A DNA stretch of 45,198 nucleotides, taken from assembly GCA_011051755.1 (NCBI GenBank), contig DRKN01000040.1, forward strand, positions 1 through 45,198. Direction: 5' to 3'. Below, piece after piece: positions 33,503-35,837 of the stretch. The notes beneath the pieces are model-generated. The model saw nothing but the letters and a program-made list of their open reading frames with translations, had not been told where the DNA came from and did no database searches. This DNA comes from Gammaproteobacteria bacterium. GTDB taxonomy: Bacteria; Pseudomonadota; Gammaproteobacteria; SZUA-152. Both the position numbers and the translations under genes were made by a program. Each line of letters starts with the position of its first letter. The stretch's first letter is position 1.

Positions 33503-33614
33503 TAGACCTTTTTGCCGCTGGCGTGGAGGGCGTCGAATTTCATGAGATGAGGTAGCAGGCGTGTTTTTCGCCACAGAGACACAGAGCACAGAAAGTCGAG
33601 AAAGGGAGTTTGTG

Positions 33615-35036
33615 ATGTTGAGCTGGGAGCGCTTGTTAAATAGCGAAAGAAGAAAACCAAAGGCAGACAAGGCCCAGAAAACCGAAGAACCCAAATCGAC
33701 AGATGCCCGCACTGAAATTGAGAGAGACTATGACCGAATACTCTTCTCGACCCCTGTGCGGCGATTGGCGGATAAAACCCAGGTATTTCCGCTCGAACGA
33801 AATGACAGTGTCAGAACAAGGCTCACGCATTCTTACGAAGTGTCCAATTTGGCAAGAAGTCTGGGGGTTGTTTTAGCGTTCGACGATAAAATAATTACTG
33901 ATGAAACCTTGAAGCCGGAGCGGAATTTGCCGGCTATTCTGGCGGCTATTGGTTTGGCGCATGACCTTGGTAATCCGCCATTTGGGCATCAAGGCGAGCA
34001 GGCTATTCAGACGTGGTTCAAGGATAATCCGGGTGTCTTAGAAGATGGTCAGCTTACTGAGGCAATGAAGCAGGATTTTATAAAATTTGAAGGGAACGCC
34101 CAAACGCTTCGGTTGCTAACCCGTTTGCAGCTTATCAATGATGAGTATGGCTTGAATCTCACTTACGCTACGTTAGCAGCGTTAATGAAATACCCGACGG
34201 CATCAGACAAAATTGACAAGAATCATGTGGCAAAGAAAAAGCATGGATATTTTCAGTCTGAGAAGGAGATTGTCGCGGATATTTGGGCCAAGACAGGGCT
34301 TTCTGAAGGCGTGCGTCATCCGCTTACCTATGTCATGGAGGCCTGTGACGATATTGCGTATGCAGTGGTTGATGCCGAAGATGCGGTAAAGAAGGGCTTG
34401 GTTTCATTTTCAGATTTAATATCATATTTGGAGCATCATGGAAATGGTGATGATGCAGTGAAGGTGGTTTATGAGAAGGCTTGTTGTAAACATAAAAAAC
34501 ACCGGAAAACTGTGTTGTCACCAGCAGAACTGAATGATATTTCGATGCAGATGTTCCGAGTATATGCCATTGGTGAGATGGTTCGAGATGTAAGGGACGC
34601 ATACAGAGACCAAAAAGATAAGATAATGGCTGGTAATCTAAAGCCGGATCTCTTGACGGAGAGTCGTTCCAGTAAGCTGTGTGAGTTGTTGAAAAAATTT
34701 GATAAAGAGCATGCCTATGTCCATAGAAGCGTTCTGGAAGTCGAACTTACCGGCTACAACACGATTCGTGGCTTGATGAATTTTTTATGGGAGGCTATAC
34801 ATCAGCGTAAGGAGCCAGAAAATTTGGGTTTGCGCCGCTCAACACCCTTTGCAGCGTATGCCTACAACAGAATATCAGAGAACTATAGAAGGATATTTGA
34901 AAATGACTCAAACCCTTTACCTGTCAGATATAAGGAGCTACAACTTTTGACAGATATGATTTCCGGAATGACAGACTCTTTTGCACTGTCTCTTTACGAT
35001 GAGCTAAAGCAATATTATGTGCCAAGAAAAGCCTAA
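33615..35036 (+). CDS. HD-domain dGTPase-like dNTP triphosphohydrolase
   Basis: RILFSTPVRRLADKTQVFPLERNDSVRTRLTHSYEVSNLARSLG, GLAHDLGNPPFGHQGEQAI, MEACDDIAYAVVDAEDAVKKG; start chosen at ATG 33615 after aaagggag. Confidence 0.9.
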   Translation: MLSWERLLNSERRKPKADKAQKTEEPKSTDARTEIERDYDRILFSTPVRRLADKTQVFPLERNDSVRTRLTHSYEVSNLARSLGVVLAFDDKIITDETLKPERNLPAILAAIGLAHDLGNPPFGHQGEQAIQTWFKDNPGVLEDGQLTEAMKQDFIKFEGNAQTLRLLTRLQLINDEYGLNLTYATLAALMKYPTASDKIDKNHVAKKKHGYFQSEKEIVADIWAKTGLSEGVRHPLTYVMEACDDIAYAVVDAEDAVKKGLVSFSDLISYLEHHGNGDDAVKVVYEKACCKHKKHRKTVLSPAELNDISMQMFRVYAIGEMVRDVRDAYRDQKDKIMAGNLKPDLLTESRSSKLCELLKKFDKEHAYVHRSVLEVELTGYNTIRGLMNFLWEAIHQRKEPENLGLRRSTPFAAYAYNRISENYRRIFENDSNPLPVRYKELQLLTDMISGMTDSFALSLYDELKQYYVPRKA

Positions 35037-35814
35037 AAAATCATCTGATTTGAAAAGGAAGGTTAATTACTTTCTTTCCTCCCCCAAGCTGGGGCGGCCG
35101 GAAGTAAAAAATCTTCTTGATCAGCTTCAGGGGCTTGGAGGTGTGGGTATTTTTGGGGGTATGTTGAGAGACTTGAGCTTGCTGGGAAATGAGGGGTTTG
35201 ATTCTGATATAGACTTGGTTATTGATACTGATAAAGAAGATGAATTGGACACCCTTCTTCGGCCTTACAGACCCGTCCAGAATAAATTTGGGGGTTATCG
35301 TTTAAAACTTTCCCGATGGCCGGTGGATATATGGCTGCTGAAATCCACATGGGCCTTTAAAAAGGGTTACGTGGAGGATGATACCTTTGCGGATCTTTGC
35401 AAGACAACATTTTTTGACTGGGATGGGATTGTCTACAAAGTTGGGGATGGCACGATACTGACAGTGGATGGTTACTTTGATCATATCAATGAAAAATTAT
35501 TGGATATCAATTTGGAAAATAATCCAAACCCGATGGGCAATATTGTTAAGGCGTTCAGATATCGGGAAAAATATGGCGCGGGATTTTCTAATCGCCTCGC
35601 AAAATACATTTATGAAAATTTAGAAGATTTTGATCCTGATCGTATTAGTTCTTATGAAAACAAAAGTCATGATCGGCCTGTGCTCAGCAGCAATATTATA
35701 TCCCAGATTTTCGAAGAGCTATGTATACATCAGGAAAAATACCCGCTTCTACCTTTTGTGGGTGCGGGGGTGCAGTCATCATTGTGGACAGCCAAGGATG
35801 ACCAAGGGAGTTAG
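35017..35814 (+). CDS. Pol-beta-type nucleotidyltransferase (poly(A) polymerase/CCA-transferase head-like)
   Basis: [29 protein letters not shown] plus third acidic site RWPVDIWLL; overlaps dGTPase-like gene by 20 nt. Confidence 0.75.
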
Positions 35815-35837
35815 CATCCGCTAGCTGTCTTTTCCCC

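Follow-up and report, generated by a model that had tools for sequence, protein, structure and literature searches.

A dGTPase-Nucleotidyltransferase Gene Pair Between thrC and tgt

The window analyzed here is a 45,198-nt stretch of DNA from a Gammaproteobacteria bacterium (SZUA-152; assembly GCA_011051755.1, contig DRKN01000040.1, positions 1 to 45,198, forward strand), in which a two-gene module lies between thrC and tgt. Do these two genes constitute an anti-phage system, and if so, is it a new one? An earlier note had proposed a candidate defense pair without a name. We found that the pair belongs to a system that has already been named and mechanistically solved, namely Clover (CloA-CloB), which was described by Yamaguchi et al. 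(2025) and characterized in E. coli H5 and Salmonella SA20044414 (PMC12265719); such a match was among the outcomes that the note itself had listed against its proposal. Neither PADLOC-DB 2023 nor NCBIfam contains a Clover model. Positions 33615-35814 very probably represent an intact Clover (cloA-cloB) operon, a reading based on the homology of both proteins to known Clover proteins, on their catalytic and pocket residues, on the linkage of the two genes and the purifying selection acting on them, and on where the pair is present or absent at this locus. Against this identity stand the absence of such a curated model, two substitutions in the dTTP pocket (A444M and Y452F), and the low identity of CloB.

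The first gene, cloA (33615-35036, + strand), encodes a 473-aa HD-domain dGTPase effector, assigned by homology to PDB 9p8t and to CloA of E. coli H5. It starts at ATG 33615, with a ribosome-binding-like AGGGAG just 5′, and its stop ends at 35036. The second, cloB (35017-35814, + strand), starts at ATG 35017, ends with its stop at 35814, and encodes a 265-aa Pol-beta nucleotidyltransferase, assigned by homology to CloB of E. coli H5. By their open reading frame coordinates the genes overlap by 20 nt (35017-35036, + strand), exactly as claimed earlier; the identical overlap occurs in two same-genus copies, and cloA and cloB overlap or are separated by a very short gap in most homologous Clover loci. 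The module had been taken to begin at 33503; however, 33503-33614 is an intergenic leader between thrC (32420-33502, + strand, identified by tblastn of relatives) and cloA, containing a repeat copy and the AGGGAG sequence. On the other side lies tgt (35838-36950, + strand), which is present in 54 of 57 relatives. Both genes are indeed AT-richer than their flanks, with GC contents of 44% (cloA) and 42% (cloB) vs. 58-62% in neighboring genes, and GC3 values of 0.46 and 0.42 vs. 0.72-0.78.

Homology of CloA and CloB to the Characterized Clover Proteins

In a search of all solved structures, the window CloA matched the four Salmonella CloA structures (9p8s-9p8v) with 516-524 bits (9p8t: E = 3.5e-156, 56% identity), compared with at most 218 bits for the best non-CloA dGTPase. 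It shares 53% identity with E. coli H5 CloA (L057) over 99% coverage. The HD motif (H116/D117) and the H125/E128 dyad are present, and the catalytic set H69/H117/D118/H126/E129/D242 (paper numbering) is identical at all six positions. At every checked position but Q377, the numbering used in the paper corresponds to the deposited sequence with a constant offset of two, so the residue mapping is valid. Q377 has been named as a dGTP contact (PMC12265719); it was excluded from the residue counts, as E stands at this position both in the deposited sequence and in almost every aligned homolog. CloA forms an octameric clover-shaped assembly (PMC12265719), and of the octamer-related positions, R46 is kept in the window CloA and H263 is S.

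The p3diT pocket is conserved as well, and the dTTP pocket in part. Nine of ten residues of the p3diT pocket at the dimer interface are identical, the sole change being T25 to S, and seven of nine residues are identical in the dTTP pocket, where A444 is replaced by M and Y452 by F. By comparison, four control dGTPases, one of them the second dGTPase of this organism, retain 3-6 of the ten and 3-5 of the nine, respectively. The two dTTP-pocket changes raise the possibility of a Clover-type pair with a shifted signal, in which activation has a different threshold or depends on an activator other than dTTP, or in which the inhibitory dinucleotide is not p3diT. In Salmonella CloA, the aromatic ring of Y452 packs against the thymine, activation is lost in a Y452A mutant, and A444 is a main-chain contact (PMC12265719); the F in the window and the low identity of its CloB could be read in the same direction. 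However, the base-specific dTTP contacts D64 (D61) and T453 (T449) are kept, as are Q312, D40, and N78, which contact the bases of p3diT; F is a conservative change that is common among CloB-linked CloAs (both F and M at these positions occur, for example, in Phaeobacter), and p3diT has been reported from a distant Xanthomonas CloB as well (PMC12265719). We therefore regard a shifted signal as improbable.

The window CloB is more divergent, sharing 28% identity with E. coli H5 CloB over 231 aa (E = 8e-34). It contains the nucleotidyltransferase motif (GG 47-48, D64, D66, and D104), the three acids fitting the Pol-beta active-site pattern [DE]h[DE]...h[DE]h, and the GG, RD, D64, D66, D104, and TWA columns are invariant in an alignment of 28-29 CloB homologs. 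Among Pfam families only NTP_transf_2 was matched, at a sub-threshold E of 0.022; CloB has no NCBIfam match and no significant PolyA_pol match, and a weak match to PADLOC PDC-S09 (E = 0.006) was set aside. In an AlphaFold2 model (pLDDT 90), CloB is predicted to have a Pol-beta fold that is shorter than the matched chains, with CCA-adding enzymes as the nearest solved folds (Foldseek E = 5e-9, TM 0.59). The two protein classes that had been proposed, a dGTPase and a Pol-beta nucleotidyltransferase, were correct.

Overall, the window pair resembles characterized Clover in gene order, in the overlap of the two genes, in homology along the full length of each protein, in the catalytic residues, and in the p3diT pocket and most dTTP-pocket residues. 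It differs in the low CloB identity, in the T25S, A444M, and Y452F changes, and in its chromosomal thrC-tgt location, whereas the H5 system lies in an integrase-bearing island beside tRNA-Sec. The stand-alone anti-phage dGTPases of the Shewanella SpdGTPase type are likewise HD-domain dGTPases with presumed dGTP depletion; in contrast to these, the window CloA has a partner nucleotidyltransferase and the CloA allosteric pockets, and scores 211.2 bits against the corresponding model (NF041026, antiphage_dGTPase; cut-off 400).

A Putative Mechanism

The earlier note had also suggested that the nucleotidyltransferase might regulate the dGTPase, and this has been demonstrated for homologs: CloA destroys dGTP, and the CloB product p3diT holds CloA off (PMC12265719). 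By analogy, in an uninfected cell, CloB would join two thymidine nucleotides to form p3diT, which would occupy the CloA dimer interface and keep the enzyme inactive. When a phage raises the dTTP pool, this p3diT brake would be displaced and dTTP would occupy the neighboring site; dTTP-bound CloA would then complete its active site and destroy dGTP, such that phage DNA synthesis would fail. It is from these homologs that we infer what the two enzymes do, which signal molecule they use, and that they defend this organism against phages. An anti-phage function, as proposed, is likely by homology to Clover, and the window system is probably functional.

Linkage of cloA and cloB

When a CloB alignment was used to scan genomes and viral contigs, the former yielded 28 CloB loci and the latter one more, spanning gammaproteobacteria, alphaproteobacteria, betaproteobacteria, and one campylobacterial metagenome-assembled genome (MAG). 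In all 29, a few of which are from same-family genomes that a separate genome search also recovered, a cloA sequence lies directly 5′ on the same strand, although contig ends truncate some of the cloA copies. All seven plasmid records with a CloB match (Phaeobacter and Bacillus among them) also have an adjacent cloA match. The reverse linkage is incomplete: eight of 369 sampled genomes of the class contain a CloA of at least 50% identity, and CloB is missing from four of the eight.

This linkage bears on whether the pair might be a housekeeping dGTPase and an unrelated tRNA-type nucleotidyltransferase that are neighbors by chance. CCA-adding enzymes are the nearest solved folds of CloB, and in another genus solo CloA-like genes occupy a conserved chromosomal site, both of which would fit chance adjacency. 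However, none of the 29 loci has CloB without adjacent cloA sequence, and the pair is missing from thrC-tgt in half the genus. CloB is a predicted 265 aa compared with ~340-460 in the matched chains of CCA-adding enzymes and poly(A) polymerase heads, with which it shares the Pol-beta nucleotidyltransferase fold at 13-19% identity and from which its obligate linkage to cloA and the PolyA_pol result further set it apart. The window CloA has the fold and catalytic site of housekeeping Dgt but falls below the cut-offs of both equivalog models (PRK04926, 319 vs. 405; PRK01096, 403.8 vs. 439) and is patchy at its locus. A different, housekeeping-type dGTPase adjoins aroB in the same genome, and 22 of 24 genomes of the family have similar matches away from this locus, arguing that cloA is not the housekeeping enzyme. 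Chance adjacency is thus extremely unlikely, and the pair is best read as Clover.

In the E. coli strain GPT24-02 (L058, 4405-6634), another, divergent Clover lies at flhB-cheZ. Of 5426 complete E. coli genomes, 106 have this Clover between flhB and cheZ and nine have the H5 type, which in one of the nine is reduced to a 234-bp remnant.

The thrC-tgt Junction in Relatives

In the genus of the window, Clover occupies the thrC-tgt junction in three genomes (G000, G001, and G005), and cloB lies at a contig start in a fourth (G002). In three others (G003, G004, and G006), the junction is empty, with a thrC-tgt gap of 179-216 bp and no Clover. In a second genus, one genome (G018) harbors both Clover and an AAA_21/DUF4276 pair in this slot (L080, 3119-4857), the latter matching PADLOC HEC-01A/B with E-values of 3e-133 and 6e-61; another (G016) has an AAA/DUF4276 pair of this type, by sequence likeness, without Clover (L083, 3348-5068), and a third (G011) has a short gap. 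Because relatives are empty or carry Clover, Clover plus HEC-01, or HEC-01 alone, their gene content indicates that the junction is a small defense slot, with HEC-01 as a candidate defense pair. That one junction of housekeeping genes can hold Clover, HEC-01, the two together, or neither in members of a single family is a comparative addition to the published work (PMC12265719).

The comparison also qualifies the earlier view of an insertion: the pair is an accessory module whose site is empty in relatives, but it is not a recent arrival. When matched genome pairs are compared, the two Clover genes show synonymous divergence of the same order as their flanking genes thrC and tgt, with values of 0.28 (cloA), 0.54 (cloB), 0.21 (tgt), and 0.36 (thrC) between the window and G001, and 1.32 (cloA), 1.21 (cloB), and 1.33 (tgt) between the window and G018. 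Since the divergence is comparable to that of the flanks and a second genus is occupied at the same site, the presence of Clover here appears to be old, and the simplest reading of these sequences is that it has long resided at thrC-tgt and has been lost repeatedly. Exchange of Clover by recombination through the flanks might also have taken place. Within the genus, dN/dS is 0.16-0.18 for cloA and 0.10-0.15 for cloB, and it is 0.08-0.10 for both against the second genus; these ratios (0.08-0.18) indicate that both genes have been maintained. A decayed or silent Clover relic, to which the AT-rich genes, the decayed copies in two relatives (G019 and G097), and the finding of no sigma-70-like promoter beyond chance on the + strand might point, is hardly credible given two intact frames under such dN/dS values, a complete set of catalytic residues, and the ribosome-binding-like AGGGAG.

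A 2.7-kb contig (L092, WGED01000406.1) that is binned as a Cyclobacteriaceae MAG contains a cloB 77% identical to that of the window, followed by tgt; it is probably a misplaced contig.

Damaged Clover Loci

In one relative (G019; L046, 814-1843), an in-frame deletion at the thrC-tgt site has removed ~400 cloA codons and joined CloA residues 1-50 to ~453-472, with a 5-bp microhomology (CGGAT) common to both break points and CloB intact. Such a natural in-frame CloA deletion that spares CloB is evidence beyond that already published (PMC12265719). Elsewhere, cloA has a frameshift (G097/L094), a transposase gene within it (L114), or an N-terminal truncation (L099), or is split (an E. coli clone), in each case with cloB intact. 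This gives five loci with broken cloA and intact cloB and none of the reverse, as no locus with intact cloA and broken cloB was seen among the Clover loci compared; two truncated copies at contig ends (L101 and L108) were left out of this count. Loss of CloA with retention of CloB agrees with the brake model but is only suggestive, because the 5-to-0 asymmetry has p = 0.11 allowing for gene length and several of the five cases are MAG contigs. We therefore rejected it as proof of that model.

CloA Without CloB

Three species of one other gammaproteobacterial genus (G290, G180, and G383; two of the assemblies single-contig) contain an intact CloA-like dGTPase 58% identical to that of the window (L149, 2873-4312; L150, 2983-4428; L151, 3003-4433), and a profile search of these genomes did not find CloB. 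The gene is in the same chromosomal place in all three, with a 5′-deoxynucleotidase gene (yfbR-like, NF003009) 40-50 nt downstream, and its dN/dS of 0.05-0.11 shows purifying selection. These solo CloAs are puzzling because in E. coli CloA becomes toxic when CloB is absent (PMC12265719), and they pose a testable question: what restrains CloA without its partner?

The pockets of the solo CloAs are as complete as those of the window (p3diT, 9 of 10; dTTP, 7 of 9). Pocket residues therefore mark the CloA subfamily and not CloB dependence, and we rejected pocket conservation as proof of the latter. It is conceivable, if rather unlikely, that the p3diT pocket reads another cellular nucleotide, that the signal of CloB was captured later, and that the window CloA may also respond to a ligand that does not depend on CloB.

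The Leader and Other Features of the Window

A single copy of the cacagagacacagag repeat (CACAGAG family) lies at 33572-33586 in the leader 5′ of cloA. The repeat that had been placed at the 5′ border is thus real, but it does not mark a border of the module: it is dispersed in the genome (24 copies with at most one mismatch vs. one for a reversed control pattern), and a related CACAGAGGCACAGAG copy occurs in the empty thrC-tgt site of G004, which belongs to the same genus and is without the pair. The latter copy in particular shows that the repeat is neither a border mark nor a sign of insertion, and we rejected it as an element border. The empty thrC-tgt gaps of relatives (L043, L044, L045, and L049) contain differing short palindromic repeats (AACGCAAAGGCGCAAAG, CACCACAGAGGCACAGAG, CACCACGAACAGCACGAAG).

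The leader between thrC and cloA is conserved in G001 and G005. It includes an inverted 31-nt piece (33514-33544) that is 71% like the start of tgt (35837-35867), with one reading as MKFDALHASG. This likeness of 22 of 31 positions was reached by none of 300 mononucleotide shuffles, in a comparison picked after the match was seen. The piece is present in G001 and G005 and absent from G018 and G019, and it is possibly a relic of a rearrangement at the left edge of the module.

Three proteins scanned from two other AT-rich stretches of the window (~19-22.5 kb and 43.5-45.2 kb) gave no defense-family match. A TraT-like (PF05818) lipoprotein gene is located in the first of these stretches (20192-21007), near a cytochrome-c-peroxidase-like gene that is present there as a second, partial copy.
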